This document shows positions 3,670-50,846 of a stretch of DNA of 64,000 nucleotides, piece after piece. Source of the stretch: Gammaproteobacteria bacterium (lineage in GTDB: Bacteria > Pseudomonadota > Gammaproteobacteria > Nitrosococcales > Methylophagaceae); NCBI GenBank assembly GCA_029248745.1, contig JAQWIT010000013.1:248001-312000 (forward strand), given 5' to 3'. How positions within the stretch are numbered: position 1 is the stretch's first letter; the number at the start of each line of letters is the position of its first letter. The notes under the pieces were generated by a model that searched no databases, had not been told where the DNA came from, and saw nothing but the letters and a program-made list of their open reading frames with translations. The position numbers and the translations under genes are program-made.

Positions 3670-4818
3670 ATGATGTTAAAAACAGTAAAAAATTTACTAT
3701 TTATAGGTTTAATGCTTGCTTCAGTAACAAGTCATGCGGTTTTTGCGCAGACACCTAAAGCACCTGATGTGGCTGCAAAATCTTATATTTTGCAGGATTA
3801 TGCCAGTGGTAAAGTAATCGCAGCTGTGAATGCAGGTCAACATTTACCCCCAGCTAGTATTACAAAGTTGATGACTGCCTATGTCGTGTCTAAAGAGTTA
3901 GCATCTGGCAATATTGCTTTAGAGGATGAGGTTCTAGTCAGTGAGAAAGCTTGGCGAATGGTCGGATCGCGCAGTTTTATTGAGGTTAACAGCAAAGTCT
4001 CTGTTGAAGTGTTATTACGTGGCATGATTATACAATCAGGTAATGACGCGGCAGTTGCTTTGGCTGAACATATTGCTGGTAGTGAAGAAACTTTTGCTCA
4101 GATGATGAATCAGTATGCTCAGCAATTGGGTATGTTTAATACCAATTACCAAAATTCGACGGGTTTACCAAGTAAAGAGCACTATACGACCGCTGAGGAT
4201 ATTGCCATTTTATCTGCAGCGGTGATCCGTGATTTTCCTGACCATTATGCTTGGTATGCAGAAAAAGAATACACCCATAACAATATTACTCAGCATAACC
4301 GTAACAAATTGTTATGGCGTGATAAGAGTGTTGATGGACTGAAAACAGGGCATACTGAAGAAGCGGGTTATTGTCTTGCCGCATCGGCTAAACGTGATGG
4401 CATGCGGTTAATTTCGGTTGTTTTGGGTACCCGTAGTGAGAATGCTAGAGCACAAGAAACGCAAAAATTGTTCAATTATGGTTTCCGCTTTTTTGAAACA
4501 CATGATTTATATCAAATGGGTCAGCCGATAGCTGAAAGTAAGGTTTGGAAAGGGGAAACAGATAAAGTTTCTTTGGGTTTAGCCGAGCCTTTAACTATTA
4601 CAGTTGCACGTGGTCAGTATGAAGCATTAGTGGCGACAACGAATATCCAAAAGCCGATTGTTGCACCTATTCAAGTGGGTCAAGTATTGGGTGAAGTGAA
4701 CATTCATTTAGCGGGTGAGTTGGTTGCGACAAAACAGTTAGTTGCGATTGAAGCTGTTGAGAAAGGCAGCTGGTGGCGTCAGCTATTAGATATGTTACTG
4801 ATGTTGATCTGGGGCTAA
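3670..4818 (+). CDS. dacA: D-alanyl-D-alanine carboxypeptidase (PBP5/6 family)
   Basis: This trims the terminal D-Ala from peptidoglycan pentapeptides. All three penicillin-binding boxes are visible: SITK, SGN and KTG. The C-terminal domain ends in a hydrophobic/amphipathic helix (WWRQLLDMLLMLIWG) typical of the PBP5 membrane anchor. An N-terminal signal peptide ends near VFAQ. The in-frame TTG at 3649 lies inside rlpA, so I prefer the paired ATGs at 3670/3673, which put the signal peptide at the start. Confidence 0.94.
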   Translation: MMLKTVKNLLFIGLMLASVTSHAVFAQTPKAPDVAAKSYILQDYASGKVIAAVNAGQHLPPASITKLMTAYVVSKELASGNIALEDEVLVSEKAWRMVGSRSFIEVNSKVSVEVLLRGMIIQSGNDAAVALAEHIAGSEETFAQMMNQYAQQLGMFNTNYQNSTGLPSKEHYTTAEDIAILSAAVIRDFPDHYAWYAEKEYTHNNITQHNRNKLLWRDKSVDGLKTGHTEEAGYCLAASAKRDGMRLISVVLGTRSENARAQETQKLFNYGFRFFETHDLYQMGQPIAESKVWKGETDKVSLGLAEPLTITVARGQYEALVATTNIQKPIVAPIQVGQVLGEVNIHLAGELVATKQLVAIEAVEKGSWWRQLLDMLLMLIWG

Positions 4819-7641: not shown

Positions 7642-8799
7642 ATGAGTGATTTTTTACCCGGACTGGAAGGCGTTGCTGCCACTAAATCTGCTATTTCGTA
7701 TATTGATGGTGAACGAGGTTTATTATCTTACAGAGGCTATCCTTTAGAAACGTTGGCCGAAAACAGTAGCTTCGAAGAAACGACGCTGTTGTTATTGGAT
7801 GGTGAATTACCATCAGCTACAGACCTCGATGGCTTCACTAAAAAATTAAGACGCCACTACCGAATTAAATATCATATTCGTGAAATGATGCGTCATTTCC
7901 CTGCAACTGCTCATCCTATGGATATGTTGCAGACAGCAGTATCAAGTCTAGGTATGTTTTATCCGGGCACTGAATGTTTGACGGGCTCTAGTGTTTGTGA
8001 AGATCTCAATTACGTTCGTAATATGACGATTAATATCATTGCTCAAATGGCACCATTGGTCGCGATGTGGGAGCATATGCGTCAAGGTTATGATCCGATA
8101 GAACCGCGTGAAGATTTATCGGTTGCTGAAAATTTACTGTATATGTTCACGGGTAAAGAACCGGATCCGTTGTTAGCTAGGATTATGGATGTTTGTTTGA
8201 TTCTCCATGCTGAACATACTTTGAATGCCTCTACGTTTTCAGCATTAGTGTCTGGTTCTACCTTAGCAACACCTTATAGTGTTATTTCTGGTGCGGTTGG
8301 GACTTTATCGGGCCCATTACATGGCGGGGCAAACTTTAAAGTTGTCGAGATGTTGAAAGAAATTGGTAGTGCAGACAAGGCAGAAGCCTGGGTCGATAAT
8401 GCACTAGCCAATAAAAATGTTATCTGGGGTATGGGCCATCGTGAATATAAGGTGAAAGACCCGCGTGCTACTATTTTACACAAATTGGTTGCAGAATTAA
8501 TTGAAGACCGTGGCAGTAGTTTAGATAATACTTTTGAAACAGCAATGAAGGTGGAAGAGGTCTGTGTTGAACGTTTAGGTCACAAAGGTGTCTACCCCAA
8601 TGTTGATTTTTATTCCGGTATCTTATACGAAGAAATGGGCATTCCAGCGGATCAATTTACAGCGTTATTCGCTGTGGCACGTTCTGCAGGTTGGTTAGCC
8701 CACTGGCGTGAACAAATCTCAGATAATCGAATCTATCGTCCGACACAGATCTATACCGGTAGTGATGTCCGTAATTATGTGCCAATCAGCCAGCGTTAA
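7642..8799 (+). CDS. gltA: Citrate synthase (short form; citrate/2-methylcitrate family)
   Basis: This condenses acetyl-CoA with oxaloacetate. The active-site histidines are in LHAEHTLNAS and GMGHREYKVKDPRA, and the aspartate is in NVDFYSG. At 385 residues it belongs to the short class, which includes 2-methylcitrate synthases; no other prp genes are nearby, so citrate synthase is preferred. The start at 7642 follows a GAGG ribosome site at 7631. An in-frame ATG at 7609 would add an unlike extension. It ends 8 bases from the convergent epmB. Confidence 0.85.
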   Translation: MSDFLPGLEGVAATKSAISYIDGERGLLSYRGYPLETLAENSSFEETTLLLLDGELPSATDLDGFTKKLRRHYRIKYHIREMMRHFPATAHPMDMLQTAVSSLGMFYPGTECLTGSSVCEDLNYVRNMTINIIAQMAPLVAMWEHMRQGYDPIEPREDLSVAENLLYMFTGKEPDPLLARIMDVCLILHAEHTLNASTFSALVSGSTLATPYSVISGAVGTLSGPLHGGANFKVVEMLKEIGSADKAEAWVDNALANKNVIWGMGHREYKVKDPRATILHKLVAELIEDRGSSLDNTFETAMKVEEVCVERLGHKGVYPNVDFYSGILYEEMGIPADQFTALFAVARSAGWLAHWREQISDNRIYRPTQIYTGSDVRNYVPISQR

Positions 8800-8806
8800 A
8801 GTCTGA

Positions 8807-9814
8807 TCAGCTAATTATCGTTTTACTGGTTTTGCCTTGTTGTTCTCGAACTAAGCGAGGGACAAGGTAACCAGACAATTTCGTTCTTAATTGTTCGATT
8901 AAGTTAATCCCTTCCTTTTCTGATACGTCAAAATGGCTGGCGCCCGCCACAGGATCGAGTAAGTGTAAGTAATAAGGTACAACAGCCATTTCAATCAGTT
9001 TTCCACTGAGAGCAGCAAGTGCTGTCACGGAGTCGTTAATCCCTTTTAATAGGACAGATTGATTAAGTAATTGCACATTAGCTTTAGTTAATTTCTGTAA
9101 TGCTTTTGCTTCGATTGGTGTTAACTCATTGATGTGATTTGCGTGTATCACCATGATGACTTTAAATCGAGTGCTGCTTATCCAGTCTAATAGCGTGTCA
9201 TTAATCCGTTCAGGTAATACGATGGGTAGACGAGTATGGATACGTAGCCGTTTTAGATGTGGGATTTGTTCAAGTTCTGAGACTATTTGAGCTAATTTTT
9301 GATCATTCAATGCTAAAGGATCCCCACCGCTTAAGATAACTTCATCTGTGTCAGACTCTTGTTGTAGCATTGATAGGGTTTGCTGCCATTGGCTGGCTAG
9401 CGGATTACTTTCGTTATAAGGAAAGTGGCGTCTGAAGCAATATCGACAATGGATGGCACAAGCGCCCGTTGTGAGTAATAAGGCGCGGCCGTTATATTTC
9501 TGAAGCAGTCCAGGACTTGTGATGGCTAGTTGGTCACCAACTGGGTCAGTTACGAAATTTTGATTGTTTACCGCTTCATCGATAAGTGGAAAAACTTGTC
9601 TTAGTAAGGGATCTTCAGGATCACCATGGCGCATTTTATTGATATAGCTTTGAGGAACGCGAAGCGGAAATTGTTTGAGCGCTGCTGGATCAATTGCCAT
9701 AAGACGATCTGTTAGCCCTAGCTGTGCCAAGAGTTCTTCTGGTTTTTTTATGGCATTGGCTAACGCTATTTGCCAGCTTTGGTTTGGTAACACCGAGGGT
9801 GTTTGAGGTATCAT
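8807..9814 (-). CDS. epmB: EF-P (R)-beta-lysine aminomutase EpmB
   Basis: This is a radical-SAM, PLP-dependent enzyme of the lysine 2,3-aminomutase family. The motif CRYCFRRHFPY supplies the [4Fe-4S] cysteines. The length (335) matches the short EpmB type rather than fermentative KamA (over 400). It converts (S)-alpha-lysine to (R)-beta-lysine for EF-P. It is divergent from efp with epmA just beyond, so the substrate gene and both modification genes adjoin. Confidence 0.92.
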   Translation of the reverse strand: MIPQTPSVLPNQSWQIALANAIKKPEELLAQLGLTDRLMAIDPAALKQFPLRVPQSYINKMRHGDPEDPLLRQVFPLIDEAVNNQNFVTDPVGDQLAITSPGLLQKYNGRALLLTTGACAIHCRYCFRRHFPYNESNPLASQWQQTLSMLQQESDTDEVILSGGDPLALNDQKLAQIVSELEQIPHLKRLRIHTRLPIVLPERINDTLLDWISSTRFKVIMVIHANHINELTPIEAKALQKLTKANVQLLNQSVLLKGINDSVTALAALSGKLIEMAVVPYYLHLLDPVAGASHFDVSEKEGINLIEQLRTKLSGYLVPRLVREQQGKTSKTIIS

Positions 9815-44943: not shown

Positions 44944-45270
44944 ATGAGTGTAGCCACGGTTTACAGCCGTGCGATTGTTGGAATGGAAGCCCGTGTGGTC
45001 ACGGTAGGAGTACATTTGTCGAACGGCTTGCCAAGCTTATCCATCGTTGGGATGGCCGAAAAGGCGCTAAAAGAGAGTAAAGATCGGGTTCGCAGTACTT
45101 TACTCAATAGCCAATTTAATTCTCCACCTCAACGTATTACGATTAATTTAGCGCGTGCCTATCATCGTATTTTAAAAGTTGCGCGAACGATTGCTGATTT
45201 GGCTGATTGTGAAGCGATTGAAACTATACATCTGACACAGGCGATTGGGTATCGTCGGATGGACACATAG
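44944..45270 (+). pseudogene. comM: ComM/YifB with large internal deletion
   Basis: The frame is open for 108 residues. The first 70 ([36 protein letters not shown]) are the ComM N-terminus up to RITINLA. The last 38 ([27 protein letters not shown]) are its extreme C-terminus. About 400 residues, including the whole AAA+ ATPase core, are missing in frame. ComM is a branch-migration helicase needed for integrating transformed DNA. A stable product without the motor would not have that function. Confidence 0.9.
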
Positions 45271-45581
45271 AGATAAGTAAGGATGAGCTAGGCACCTCTA
45301 AAAGAAGATGTTCTGAAAGTGAGAAAAACAGAACTGAAGTCAGATAAATATCCCTTCGGTAAGCTTGTCTGAGGTAGAAAACCCGCAAATTATCGCGAAA
45401 AAAACTGAGAATTAATTTCGCTGATCCTTTTGATCACGGCTCTAGTAGTTAATAGTTGAGTTATGACTGCTATATCGGGATAGAATAAGGGATTACAGTT
45501 AAATGTCTTATGCTGAATTTTGGGGTTACTAATTCAAAACAAGGCATATAGAATGGGTGCTAAATATAAATGAGGGTATGT
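45271..45581. other. Intergenic region upstream of the lar unit
   Basis: About 310 bases hold no gene I can support. They must contain the promoter of the downstream six-gene unit. The best pair is TTGAGT (45456) with TAGAAT (45481) at a long 19-base spacing, which is weak. I see no clear NikR-type operator. Confidence 0.4.
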
Positions 45582-47366
45582 ATGTCAGATAGCAGTCAGA
45601 TTGAAAGAGAGAAAGTATTACTCGCAGCGTTAACGGGTACAAATGCAAATCCGAATTGGTTGACCAGTGATATGGTCGATGCGTTATTGGGTGGACACGG
45701 TATGTTGAATATCGCCATCTTTAATATTGCGGATGTGATTGTTTCAGAAATGAGGCGGGGCACAGATACCGATCTACATCTCGTTAATGCACCGACACAG
45801 CCACTTGATGAGGTATTAAAGAAAACAATTAATGTGGCTATCAAAGCGGGTTGCGATCCTGCTAATGCAGCGTTGTTAAGTGCTTCAATGCTCTATCTGA
45901 CTGGAACTAAAGCACAAGTCGGTATTCCGGCGGGAAATCGAAAACTCGGTGCCAGTGCACGTATGATCGCAGGTGTCGATCGCTGTGGTGTTGCTGCGAT
46001 TCCAACGGCTAAGAGAAATAATAAGGTATCTGGATTTGCCGCGGTGATGGCAATCCATCAGGCGATGTTGAACGGTGAACTCTGTGATGTCAGTGGTTAT
46101 GATGTGGTCTGTTCTGGTGGCGGTATTATTGGTCATAGTCGGTTGGGTGAAGATATTATTTTCCCTTCCATGGCTGAAAACGGGGCACGTATCGGAACGC
46201 AAGCGATGATGGATACCATGGCCGGCGCGGGTATGAACCCGTCTAAATTCAATGCAGCTCTATTTGGTGCAGCAGCCATTCTAGAAATTATCCATCCGGA
46301 TGCTGATGTCGCTGAAAAATATGGTCCACATGGCAAGGTGACTTCAGCATATATTGCAGGGAAAGTTGCTGCTGAAACAGCAGGCTTACCGGATAAATTA
46401 CACGTCCGAATTACTGGCCAAGAATATGAAACGGGCCAAGTGATTGGCGATCTTGGCTTAATTTTGAAGGATATCGGTGGTCCTTCGGTAATTGGTATTA
46501 TGGCGCTTGGTGAAATTGTCGGCGTGTTTGAAGAAGGGATTGCAGGTGCATCTGCAGGGCCGATTAACCCACCACTGGGTCATGTGGCAGCTGATGCAGT
46601 CATTGCCATGAAATGTTTGCTTGAAGAAGGCGCTAATCAGCCTGATGTGAGTGCGGCACTTAAAAAGCGTCGTTATGATGGTAGCTTTGATCCAGAAACA
46701 TCGATGATCGCGATGAATGTGGTGGCTAAGAAAGCAGCACAGTTGCAATCTGGTACTGTCACGAATTCACTCATACTAGCTTCTGAGCCTGTGCGTGCCC
46801 AAGCCATTTATAGACGTGCTGTTATGGCCTATGAGTATCTGTCTGAGGGTAAAGGGCTTGAAGAGGTTGTTCATGACCTTGATAAAGAGCGCCAAGAGTT
46901 GGTGGAAGCCAACGTAAGTCAATACTTGAGCGAGATGTCGGGCAAAGATGTGAAGATTCGTCTAACTTATATCGGGCCGGGCGCACGTCGTAAAAGTAAA
47001 TTGGCCAAACAGTGGTTGGCTTTTGATGCGCATCTTGATTTTGAAATTGTCGTGGATGGCGAGACGACAATTTTAGAACGTTTTTCTGACCAAGTTATCC
47101 CCGATATTGCAACGGGCAAGCGTCGAGAGCTTGCTTGGGCAGCTCAGATGGCAGAGCCGCTTGCCAATGAAATGTTATTGGCATCTAATGTTGTTCTCAA
47201 TATTACGGTACCGGCGACAGTTGCTGCTGCGATGGGTAAAATGACCCCAAAAGAGGCCGGAACCGTTGCACAGGGTGCAGGCTTTGTAACAGCGGGTATA
47301 CCTGGCTCAAATGCTAATGCAGAAGCAGCCGGTAAGCTTGCTATTGAAGTTATGAACCACTCATGA
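45582..47366 (+). CDS. Unassigned 594-residue cytosolic protein, first gene of the lar unit
   Basis: I do not recognise this family. GAGGG at 45572 favours the ATG at 45582 over 45570. No signal peptide or membrane segment is seen. The first 400 residues are rich in Gly/Ala, with striking conserved-looking loops: GGHG (37-40), GNRKLGASAR (118-127), CSGGGIIGHSRLGED (177-191), HPDAD (238-242), GPHGK (248-252), then GQEYETGQVIGD and GPINPPLGH. A C-terminal region follows (YIGPGARRKSK, FSDQVIPDIATGKRREL). It resembles neither LarA nor known racemases. It overlaps the LarC2-like gene by four bases, so the two are translationally coupled. Confidence 0.85.
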   Translation: MSDSSQIEREKVLLAALTGTNANPNWLTSDMVDALLGGHGMLNIAIFNIADVIVSEMRRGTDTDLHLVNAPTQPLDEVLKKTINVAIKAGCDPANAALLSASMLYLTGTKAQVGIPAGNRKLGASARMIAGVDRCGVAAIPTAKRNNKVSGFAAVMAIHQAMLNGELCDVSGYDVVCSGGGIIGHSRLGEDIIFPSMAENGARIGTQAMMDTMAGAGMNPSKFNAALFGAAAILEIIHPDADVAEKYGPHGKVTSAYIAGKVAAETAGLPDKLHVRITGQEYETGQVIGDLGLILKDIGGPSVIGIMALGEIVGVFEEGIAGASAGPINPPLGHVAADAVIAMKCLLEEGANQPDVSAALKKRRYDGSFDPETSMIAMNVVAKKAAQLQSGTVTNSLILASEPVRAQAIYRRAVMAYEYLSEGKGLEEVVHDLDKERQELVEANVSQYLSEMSGKDVKIRLTYIGPGARRKSKLAKQWLAFDAHLDFEIVVDGETTILERFSDQVIPDIATGKRRELAWAAQMAEPLANEMLLASNVVLNITVPATVAAAMGKMTPKEAGTVAQGAGFVTAGIPGSNANAEAAGKLAIEVMNHS

Positions 47367-47872
47367 ATGAAGCAATGCTTATGCTGATGACACAGGTCGA
47401 TGATGTGCCAGGTGAATTATTGGGTGATTTTATTAAGCAATGCGAGACTGTAGGGGCACGTAATATTCAAATTGTGCCTGCGATTACAAAAAAAAACAGG
47501 CCTAGCTATCTTGTCTATGTCGATATACCAGAAAGCCTTGAAGATGATATTGCCATATTGTTTGGTGGTGAATTAGGCACATGGGGTTATCGCATTTTGC
47601 ATGCTGAGCATAAACATTTTGATATTCAACGGTCGACTTTGGTATTGAAAGTTGCGGCGTTGGATGATGAATATGAATTTGAATTACGTGCCAAGACGAT
47701 TTCGAAAGCGCAACAGTTCACGCGTGTTAAGGCTGAATATGAAGATTTAAGCCATATTTGCACCGTGTTTCGGGAAAAGGGACTGAAGATTCCACTCTCC
47801 GTATTAAAAGCAGAAGTAGAAGGACAGATCCTTAAGAATGGACATCAAGCTGTAATTAACGTTAGTTTTTAA
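47363..47872 (+). CDS. Stand-alone LarC C-terminal-domain (LarC2-like) protein
   Basis: This is 169 residues. The pattern QVDDVPGELLGDFI, VGARNIQIVPAITKKNRPS, LGTWGYRILHAEH and the closing VKAEYEDLSHIC...VEGQI follows the C-terminal half of LarC, the CTP-dependent nickel insertase. LarC normally carries this domain fused to LarC1, or made by frameshift. Here a separate gene encodes it, while a full-length larC lies 300 bases downstream. Its start overlaps the stop of the unassigned 594-residue protein (ATGA), suggesting it serves that protein specifically. Confidence 0.75.
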   Translation: MNEAMLMLMTQVDDVPGELLGDFIKQCETVGARNIQIVPAITKKNRPSYLVYVDIPESLEDDIAILFGGELGTWGYRILHAEHKHFDIQRSTLVLKVAALDDEYEFELRAKTISKAQQFTRVKAEYEDLSHICTVFREKGLKIPLSVLKAEVEGQILKNGHQAVINVSF

Positions 47873-47906
47873 AATAATTAAATGAGTTAAAAAAGGGTAT
47901 AGAAAG

Positions 47907-48164
47907 ATGATTAAATATATGACAGTAGCAATGAGTTTGCTCATATCCACTTCAGCACAAGCACATGAAACAATCGTATCTGGATTGCAAGGGACAATAA
48001 GTCACTTTTTCGCCCATATTGATAGTGCCGATCCCATTGCATTATTGTTACTCGCTGCGCTTTTAAACTTAATATGGCTACTTGTCATTAAGTCCATTAA
48101 GCGTCGTAAATCATTAGTTAAACAGCAGTCTAAATCCGAAATTAGTTACGCAAAGGTCAAATAG
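47907..48164 (+). CDS. Small membrane peptide of the lar unit
   Basis: This is 85 residues. A signal peptide ends AQA-HE, so the mature protein would start with histidine. A short periplasmic part (with SHFFAH) precedes one membrane helix (about residues 42-60, IALLLLAALLNLIWLLVI), then a basic tail KRRKS inside the cell. I recognise no family. Its place five bases before larC suggests a part in metal delivery or membrane attachment of the system, which is inference. Confidence 0.7.
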   Translation: MIKYMTVAMSLLISTSAQAHETIVSGLQGTISHFFAHIDSADPIALLLLAALLNLIWLLVIKSIKRRKSLVKQQSKSEISYAKVK

Positions 48165-48169
48165 TCAAA

Positions 48170-49342
48170 ATGCATTATCATCTTGACCCTGTTGGTGGTG
48201 TCGCTGGAGACATGTTTGTGGCGGCATTGTTGGATATGGAACCTGATTCAACAGCAGCGACGCTAGCGGCTATTCGTGATTCGGGTTTGGATCCCAGTGT
48301 TGCAGTGTCTCATGATGACTTTAACGATGGTGTTTTAACAGGTAGTCGTTTTACAGTTGGTAAACCAGAGTGTACACATCATCACGCTCATTGGTCAGCT
48401 ATTAAGAAAAACCTGTCTGACAGTGCACTGAGCCCAGCAGTCACGGACCGTGCTATTGCTATTTTTGCTGATCTCGCTGAGGCCGAAGCTAAAGTCCATA
48501 ATAAAGCGGTTAGTGATGTTGCTTTTCACGAAGTAGGTGCTTGGGATTCAATAGCGGATATTGTCGCAGCAGCCTATCTTATTGAGTCATTAGGGCCTTG
48601 CACATGGTCTATTGGGCCAATCCCTATTGGCAAAGGGCGTGTTAAAACTGAACATGGTTTGTTGCCTGTGCCTGCACCTGCAACGGTATTATTATTGGAT
48701 GGTTTTGAGTTTATCGACGACGGTTTTCCGGGTGAACGCATTACCCCGACCGGTGCTGCTATTATCAAGCATCTAAAGCCGTCTCAAGGTATAGGTAAAA
48801 CTGCTCGGGTGTTACAACGCTCTGGTTACGGTTTTGGTACTCGGACGTTCAAAGGAATGAGTAATATCTTACGTGTATTAGAATTTTCTAAGACAACGAC
48901 GTCGTCTGTTTTTTCTTGTGACACCGTGATGGTGTTAAATTTTGAGATCGATGATCAAACGGCGGAAGAGTTAGCTGTTGGTCTACAAAAAATACGTGAG
49001 CGACAGGGCGTCATCGACGTTATTCAAAGTCCGGTGATGGGAAAAAAAGGTCGTTTATTGACCAGTGTTCAAGTGCTAGTTCGGCCTGGAAATGCTGAAG
49101 ACGTCATCAATGTGTGTTTTCATGAAACGACAACGTTGGGGATTAGGCAACAAGTTAAAGCAAGGGCGATTCTGAACCGAAGTGAGTTAGAGACAGAACA
49201 AGATATCAGAGTGAAAATTGTGGAAAGGCCTGGTGGCATAACGGCAAAGGCAGATATCGATAATATTGCCAATATTGATGGGCATCAACATCGGCAAAAG
49301 CGACGTTTAGATGCGCAGTCTGATGCCTTAACAGATAAATAG
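48170..49342 (+). CDS. larC: Nickel-pincer cofactor insertion protein LarC
   Basis: This inserts nickel into the pincer nucleotide precursor in a CTP-dependent step. LarC1 (to about residue 255) shows LDPVGGVAGDMFVAALLDM, the histidine-rich THHHAHW, AFHEVGAWDSIADIVAAA and ERITPTGAAIIKHL. LarC2 (about 255-390) has LNFEIDDQTAEEL and CFHETTTLGIR, although the usual KKNRP loop is GKKGRL. It is one continuous frame, unlike the frameshifted lactobacillus gene. It is 17 bases from larE. Confidence 0.9.
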   Translation: MHYHLDPVGGVAGDMFVAALLDMEPDSTAATLAAIRDSGLDPSVAVSHDDFNDGVLTGSRFTVGKPECTHHHAHWSAIKKNLSDSALSPAVTDRAIAIFADLAEAEAKVHNKAVSDVAFHEVGAWDSIADIVAAAYLIESLGPCTWSIGPIPIGKGRVKTEHGLLPVPAPATVLLLDGFEFIDDGFPGERITPTGAAIIKHLKPSQGIGKTARVLQRSGYGFGTRTFKGMSNILRVLEFSKTTTSSVFSCDTVMVLNFEIDDQTAEELAVGLQKIRERQGVIDVIQSPVMGKKGRLLTSVQVLVRPGNAEDVINVCFHETTTLGIRQQVKARAILNRSELETEQDIRVKIVERPGGITAKADIDNIANIDGHQHRQKRRLDAQSDALTDK

Positions 49343-49359
49343 TCAGGTCGGAGAGTAAG

Positions 49360-50181
49360 TTGAGTTTATTATTAGAAAAGCTTGAAGCTGTATTGCTTGA
49401 CTGCTCACCAGCAGCTGCCGCTGTGTCTGGTGGGGTTGATAGCATGACATTGGCTTTTGTCGCACGGCGCGTACTTGCTGATCAGGTGACTATCTACCAT
49501 GCGATATCACCGGCTGTCCCGAGCATGGCAACGCAACGGGTCAAGGCTTACAGTCAAGTACAAGGCTGGTCATTAACTACATTTAACGCCGGTGAGTTCC
49601 AAGATGAGCAGTATGTTGCTAACCCAGCCAACCGTTGTTTCTTTTGTAAAACTAACCTCTATGATTCGATTTTTGAACAGATAATCGTTAATGCAAAGGC
49701 ACCGAATGTACAGATTTTATCAGGAACCAATCTCGATGATTTAAGCGATTATCGCCCTGGGTTAAAAGCCGCCGAAAAATACGCGGTTCGCCATCCTTTT
49801 GTAGAAGCAGGAATTGATAAAGCTGGGGTGCGTGCTTTAGCACATGAGTTTGGCCTTAATGATATTGCTGAGTTACCGGCTGCACCTTGTTTATCGAGCC
49901 GAGTAGAAACTGGTATCCCAATAGAAAAAGACAAATTACATTTTATTGATAAAGCTGAAATCATGTTACGTGAAGCGATTACATCGCCGACTGTTCGCTG
50001 TCGTATCCGTAAAAGTGGTGTTGTCATTGAGACAGATCTGGATGAATATACTGGTTTATCAACACAACAACAGAGCGACCTGTCTTCTGAAATAGGCGTT
50101 CTGGCTGAGCAATATGGTGTCAGTGGTGCCATATCTTTTGAGCAATATCAGCGTGGTAGTGCGTTTTTAAGAGATGAATAA
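49360..50181 (+). CDS. larE: ATP-dependent sacrificial sulfur transferase LarE
   Basis: This adenylates and thiolates the carboxylates of the nicotinate-mononucleotide-derived precursor. The PP-loop is AVSGGVDSMT at the N-terminus. CFFCK and PCLSSR supply three cysteines: PCLSSR is where sacrificial LarEs place their sulfur-donating cysteine, and the three together may instead hold an iron-sulfur cluster. It starts with TTG at 49360 after GGAGAG. The stop overlaps the larB ATG (TAATG). Confidence 0.92.
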   Translation: MSLLLEKLEAVLLDCSPAAAAVSGGVDSMTLAFVARRVLADQVTIYHAISPAVPSMATQRVKAYSQVQGWSLTTFNAGEFQDEQYVANPANRCFFCKTNLYDSIFEQIIVNAKAPNVQILSGTNLDDLSDYRPGLKAAEKYAVRHPFVEAGIDKAGVRALAHEFGLNDIAELPAAPCLSSRVETGIPIEKDKLHFIDKAEIMLREAITSPTVRCRIRKSGVVIETDLDEYTGLSTQQQSDLSSEIGVLAEQYGVSGAISFEQYQRGSAFLRDE

Positions 50182-50846
50182 TGAGTGAACTTGATATTAA
50201 GTTAGATTTTGAGCGGGAACAGCATACTGGGATCGAAGAAGCGATCTTGTGCGAATATAAGTCGCATGAGCAGATTGTAAAAATATTGTTACGTGTCCAC
50301 ACTGAGGCGAGAAGCGTCTTATTAACCCGTTTAACCGAAGCTCAATATGCTGATATTCCAGCAGATTATAAGACAATGATGAATTATGAGTCTATTTCTA
50401 AAACGGCCTATTTTAATTGGCAAGAAACGGCGTTGGGCGAAGCTGAAATTGCGATTGTAACTGCGGGAACTTCTGATGTGCCGGTAGCACGTGAGGCACT
50501 CAGAACGTTAAGGTATAACGGTATGAATGCAACGACGGTTTTTGATGTCGGTGTTGCTGGGATTTGGCGTCTTTTAGATAGAATAGAAGAAATTCGACAA
50601 TTTCCAGTACTGATTGTGTCGGCAGGTATGGATGCAGCGCTACCGACAGTATTAGGTGGACTTTATGATGGGCTCATTATTGCCGTTCCGACTTCTGTTG
50701 GCTACGGTGTGGCTACAGGTGGGACGACAGCACTCAATTCGATACTAGCGTCTTGTGCACCAGGCGTGGTGACCGTCAATATTGACAATGGTTATGGCGC
50801 AGCTTGTGCTGCACTGAAAACCTTGCGAGCAGTAGCGAAAAATTAA
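50181..50846 (+). CDS. larB: Pyridinium-3,5-biscarboxylic acid mononucleotide synthase LarB
   Basis: This carboxylates and hydrolyses nicotinic acid adenine dinucleotide, the first step to the nickel-pincer nucleotide. The C-terminal PurE-like domain shows VTAGTSDVPVAREA, VFDVGVAGIWRLLD, SAGMDAALPTVLGGL and PTSVGYGVATGGTTAL. It has a normal length of 221. It is last in the unit with larE and larC; with these three the cofactor pathway is complete in this operon. Confidence 0.94.
   Translation: MSELDIKLDFEREQHTGIEEAILCEYKSHEQIVKILLRVHTEARSVLLTRLTEAQYADIPADYKTMMNYESISKTAYFNWQETALGEAEIAIVTAGTSDVPVAREALRTLRYNGMNATTVFDVGVAGIWRLLDRIEEIRQFPVLIVSAGMDAALPTVLGGLYDGLIIAVPTSVGYGVATGGTTALNSILASCAPGVVTVNIDNGYGAACAALKTLRAVAKN

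Follow-up and report, generated by a model that had tools for sequence, protein, structure and literature searches.

The 64,000-nucleotide stretch analysed here (the window; Gammaproteobacteria bacterium, Methylophagaceae, contig JAQWIT010000013.1, positions 248,001 to 312,000) carries at 45582-50846 a real, conserved and rare variant of the lar operon, in which a 594-residue protein of no known family, here called X594, stands in the position of the cofactor user. LarB, LarE and LarC make the nickel-pincer nucleotide (NPN), whose only users known to us are LarA-family racemases and epimerases. We consider it fairly probable that X594 is a non-LarA nickel-pincer-dependent enzyme, replacing LarA as the cofactor user in a self-contained NPN module; its function is read from gene context only. 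As many genomes with larB, larC and larE (∼15% of genomes) have no larA, a class of non-LarA NPN enzymes has been predicted in print (PMC11796402). The operon fits this prediction, and X594 is probably a new NPN enzyme.

The larA slot and the linkage of X594

X594 is encoded at 45582-47366 on the plus strand (594 residues as called from the open reading frame (ORF); a second possible start at 45570 would give 598 residues). Further copies were found on four gammaproteobacterial contigs from metagenome-assembled genomes (L001-L004; 71–80% identity), as fragments in one more genome (G504) and on five rhizobial plasmids (L006, L007, L008, L009 and L112; 57–58% identity). The copies are 57–80% identical and conserved along their length. 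In 10/10 copies with a readable 3′ flank (the window, L001, L002, L003, G504 and the five plasmids; L004 ends inside X594), X594 is followed by a stand-alone LarC2-domain protein, LarC, LarE and LarB. As this five-gene order is kept in every such copy, it is not due to chance. Homologues of X594 living mostly without lar genes, which the sequence-only reading had named as evidence against a link to the cofactor, were thus not what we found: X594 occurs together with larC, larE and larB, and no Lar_N domain of LarA was found in the genomes and plasmids searched. The X594 and LarC2 reading frames overlap by the four bases ATGA in the window, L001 and L002 and by one base in the alphaproteobacterial copies. 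A census of 72,556 plasmid records found X594 in five and the stand-alone LarC2 in those five and no others, all of them among the 98 LarB-positive records. For independent records the chance of this would be ∼4e-15; the X594 copies are not independent of one another, and the figure overstates the case.

Within a set of 95 close-relative genomes, the window genome included, X594 was found in the window genome only. Among 29 genomes of its genus, as in that genome itself, the operon's own LarB is the single one over the cut-off; other matches were weak and PurE-like. As X594 and a LarB over the cut-off are confined to the window genome among the relatives searched, the module was gained or kept as a block. 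The operon is rare and horizontally scattered among distant bacteria, and no gene besides the core is common to gamma- and alphaproteobacterial loci. X594 was absent from a sample of 298 Rhizobiaceae genomes, a set without a positive control. Searching DNA with the ugpC flank gave no more than a crude guide to the Rhizobiaceae.

Comparison with LarA-bearing loci showed which position X594 holds. The Rhodovastum comparator RHOApc (L109) reads larA-larC-larE-larB, and larA lies near larC-larE-larB in R. leguminosarum and Phyllobacterium (L108, L110). Operons such as those of Rhodovastum RHOApc and R. leguminosarum pSK01 share with the X594 operon the larC-larE-larB order, a related LarB and a user-type gene (in the X594 operon the presumed user) at or near the 5′ end; they differ in having larA where the X594 operon has X594 and the stand-alone LarC2. 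The X594-LarC2 pair takes the larA slot of proteobacterial lar operons. LarB of the X594 operons groups with LarB of LarA-bearing proteobacterial genomes. In an 18-row set, a large LarB clade was separate from the X594 and LarA rows with support of 100/99; the branch between the X594 and the LarA rows was weak (68/0), in a tree with some long branches.

The absence of LarA from the window, noted from the letters at the outset, extends to the whole genome. Lar_N (PF09861) gave no match in this 1.73-Mb assembly, rated 99.99% complete, and Thermotoga and Methanosarcina controls were positive; a LarA encoded elsewhere that would account for larB, larC and larE was thus not found. Nor was Lar_N found in the four genomes behind L001-L004 (G489-G492), in G504 or on the four plasmid records L006-L009, a search that covered four of the five X594 plasmids, with the fifth plasmid and the rhizobial chromosomes outside it.

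Two rhizobial plasmids carry decaying copies of the operon. A nonsense codon in larE is common to R. tropici CIAT 899 (L006 13613-14419) and Rhizobium CCGE531 (L112 11541-12347), and in CCGE531 the loss of 5 bases early in X594 (L112 ∼8028) has also shifted the reading frame of that gene. The copies in CCGE532, CB3090 and Ciceribacter are intact. If X594 depends on the cofactor, it should be lost once the cofactor is no longer made, which fits the state of CCGE531.

Operon proteins and proposed mechanism

The layout first read from the sequence, six plus-strand genes with overlaps or small gaps, was confirmed, the gaps being at most 34 bases. X594 shares its ATGA overlap with the stand-alone LarC2-domain protein (47363-47872; 169 residues), which is followed after 34 bases by a small secreted or membrane peptide (47907-48164; signal-like N terminus, hydropathy) and, 5 bases on, by larC (48170-49342), a nickel insertase with LarC1 and LarC2 parts (TIGR00299, E = 3e-54; NF052512, E = 4e-27). 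A gap of 17 bases leads to the sulfur transferase gene larE (49360-50181; TTG start; TIGR00268, E = 1e-68), which overlaps by one base with larB (50181-50846; NF033503, E = 1e-76), encoding the carboxylase/hydrolase of nickel-pincer synthesis. Curated NCBIfam cut-offs were exceeded by LarB (257 bits versus 175), LarE (231 versus 150) and LarC (183 versus 90); LarC also gave a match at E = 7e-91 and a PDB-sequence match to 12bi (E = 1.2e-33). The stand-alone protein matched Ni_insertion/LarC2 (E = 1.8e-18, and 3.6e-15 with NF052512), above the curated cut-off. The identities assigned earlier to larC, larE, larB and the stand-alone LarC2 are therefore borne out by Pfam and NCBIfam.

LarE of the window carries a CXXC-C motif of invariant cysteines (C93, C96 and C177). 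This motif of [4Fe-4S] LarE has been defined before (PMC9283937), and judged by it the window protein is of the [4Fe-4S] type. The same motif serves a [4Fe-4S] cluster in Thermotoga maritima LarE; in the window protein the cluster is predicted. The best PDB-sequence match of the stand-alone LarC2 was the uncharacterised MK0293 of Methanopyrus (3c19), likewise a LarC2-family protein standing alone. The X594-operon protein keeps the DD..GE, KKxRP and VKAEYED-like motifs of the family and is always paired with X594 beside a full-length LarC; the comparison with MK0293 is one of proteins, not of gene context.

Judged by homology and the known chemistry of these families, the bisthiocarboxylate mononucleotide would be formed from nicotinic acid adenine dinucleotide through LarB and the [4Fe-4S]-type LarE, and LarC would insert nickel with cytidine triphosphate. 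X594 and the stand-alone LarC2 would be made in apparent translational coupling, and LarC2 most likely either delivers the nickelated, perhaps cytidine monophosphate-activated, cofactor to X594 or completes it there. X594 may bind the pincer through one of H39, H185, H238 and H334, possibly with a lysine tether, and could use it as hydride acceptor and donor to isomerise a small cytosolic metabolite by hidden redox chemistry, or to act on it in a related way.

The sequence-only reading had offered two roles for X594, a new user of the cofactor or a maker of a variant of it, and this pair of options survived all refutation tests run. We favour the user, as the operons are ordinary proteobacterial larC-larE-larB ones except that the X594-LarC2 pair fills the place of larA. 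That X594 and the stand-alone LarC2 instead produce a modified NPN, or a different nucleotide form of it, for a user encoded elsewhere in the genome, appears unlikely. In its favour, the gene overlapping that of X594 codes for a domain of biosynthetic type, and a second LarC2 beside a complete LarC suggests an extra step. Against it, an operon lacking any user of its own would have been spread as one block over distant bacteria, in Rhizobium with its own nickel permease, and its gamma- and alphaproteobacterial copies share no further gene.

Sequence of X594 and its relation to LarA

Pfam and NCBIfam gave no family for X594 at thresholds up to E = 1; PDB sequences gave no match up to E = 10, PADLOC and PHROGs gave nothing significant, and an IMG/VR scan brought up no relative. 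A profile of eight homologues found only a designed helical repeat among PDB sequences (E = 0.036), and Lar_N was absent from all eight up to E = 10. The protein had been described as large, cytosolic and without a family; its 594 residues, its apparent solubility (best 19-residue hydropathy window, 1.74) and these searches agree, and no assignment to a family without need of the cofactor emerged. Self-comparison by hhalign found no internal duplication. As nonsynonymous substitution rates (dN) were well below synonymous rates (dS) in X594 comparisons (dN 0.018/dS 0.14 and dN 0.035/dS 0.67), X594 is under purifying selection.

A search for residues that could hold the cofactor gave four histidines (H39, H185, H238 and H334) invariant across gamma- and alphaproteobacterial copies, seven invariant lysines (K81, K121, K144, K148, K252, K296 and K384) and a single invariant cysteine, C345. 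The four histidines and seven lysines are candidate cofactor ligands or tether. Of the histidine-bearing loops picked out by eye from one sequence, those with H39 and H185 stand, whereas the 248-252 loop is not conserved, as the alphaproteobacterial copies have Tyr in place of H250; the other two invariant histidines, H238 and H334, lie outside the loops first listed.

X594 is presumably like the LarA superfamily in being an apo-protein that receives NPN from LarB, LarE and LarC, and differs from it in length and in the Lar_N domain. Profile comparison showed no relation to LarA: full-length hhalign scores of 15–19 did not rise above column-shuffled null maxima of 23–25, a comparison whose sensitivity is limited by a shallow profile (Neff, the effective number of sequences, 1.5). 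A by-eye motif likeness to SDH_alpha (L-serine dehydratase/UPF0597) was rejected, as hhalign against 28 homologues and one UPF0597 protein scored 18.3 with a null mean of 19.1, and SDH_alpha needs three cluster cysteines where X594 has one invariant. AlphaFold2 models reached a predicted local distance difference test (pLDDT) score of 39 (4 rows, full length) and 36 (5 rows, residues 1-345), too low for a fold search to be meaningful; they are almost entirely helix.

An extremely diverged LarA, keeping the fold and acting as an ordinary if remote LarA-type racemase, would account for the position of X594 and would be compatible with models of such low confidence. We regard it as improbable: there is no Lar_N match, hhalign to LarA stays within the shuffled null, X594 has 594 residues versus ∼420–445, and the models, for what their confidence allows, are almost all helix. 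A nickel chaperone, storage protein or regulator serving the pathway, which linked nickel permeases and a histidine-bearing membrane peptide might suggest, is very improbable, as X594 has no His- or Cys-rich stretch, has only four invariant histidines and one invariant cysteine among its 594 residues, and is a large protein highly conserved over its length, which fits an enzyme better.

Several observations weigh against X594 as a non-LarA NPN enzyme. Common ancestry of the operon makes its linked copies non-independent. X594 is very rare, found in 1/398 sampled Pseudomonadota (the window genome), does not account for the other genomes with LarB and no LarA, and so explains little by number. 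Its models are too poor to place a pocket or nickel site. In CIAT 899, X594 is intact despite the interrupted larE, which could reflect recent decay or read-through, or an X594 that works without NPN. More tentative than the user role itself is the fuller proposal of X594 as the first NPN enzyme that does not belong to the LarA superfamily, with its own fold, independent NPN binding, dedicated loading by LarC2 and a reaction other than 2-hydroxyacid racemisation; we hold this to be possible, with the balance somewhat against it.

X594 offers a specific candidate that can be cloned, together with the stand-alone LarC2 as its fixed partner. As an E. coli Duet co-expression system has been published in which larA can be replaced by another user gene (PMC11796402), the postulate of non-LarA NPN proteins becomes directly testable. 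If true, a second NPN-using family would widen nickel-enzyme chemistry and account for some of the genomes with an orphan larBCE set.

Neighbouring genes and other LarB-bearing genomes

LarB was detected at E = 1e-20 in 46/339 Pseudomonadota genomes, and Lar_N in 6/45 of those tested. The separate LarB clade takes in most other genomes with LarB and no LarA; in these, the cofactor must have users of another kind, or LarA relatives that fall short of detection. In this large Pseudomonadota clade (L089-L097, L103-L106) a LarB-like protein sometimes lies beside LarC, with LarA not detected and no X594. Another orphan set is the larC-larE-larB region L102, from a genome (G258) with neither Lar_N nor X594.

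The genes upstream of X594 vary. A LigE-type beta-etherase-like glutathione transferase lies directly upstream in L001, L003, L004 and G504 (LigE-like genes at L001 4898-5590, L003 5939-6634, L004 2972-3664 and L114 8033-8719); the L001 copy matches PDB 4yam (E = 4e-32), and a divergent GlxA/AraC-type regulator adjoins the gene in L001, L003 and G504. A MalY/PatB lyase, RidA and an amino-acid ABC transporter precede X594 on three plasmids, and at least part of this set on a fourth. These neighbours are weak hints to a thiol or amino-acid derivative as the substrate of X594.

The last gene of the Rhizobium X594 operons encodes a HoxN/NixA nickel permease; in L004 the gene of a related permease lies upstream. 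The small peptide gene is found only in gammaproteobacterial operons (also L001 ∼8023-8244, L002 ∼4060-4270 and L003 ∼9037-9282), with the same architecture; alphaproteobacterial operons have no room for it, and those of Rhizobium have the permease instead. Its product has a mature end near A-H-E/D, further histidines, one transmembrane helix and a basic tail, and is possibly related to nickel uptake.

In the window, the genes on either side of the operon, among them rodA, recCBD, htpG and rnf, are of the ordinary chromosomal kind, and the G+C content of the operon is broadly continuous with theirs. An Rfam scan of the operon region gave no match, and hence no nickel or other riboswitch there; on L001, a cobalamin riboswitch (2032-2244, 104.6 bits) appears to have no relation to the operon. 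In the window, a short ORF at 44944-45270, immediately before the operon, fuses an N-terminal ChlI part to a C-terminal Mg_chelatase_C part. It is an internally deleted remnant of a comM/YifB-type protein and possibly a scar of operon insertion.

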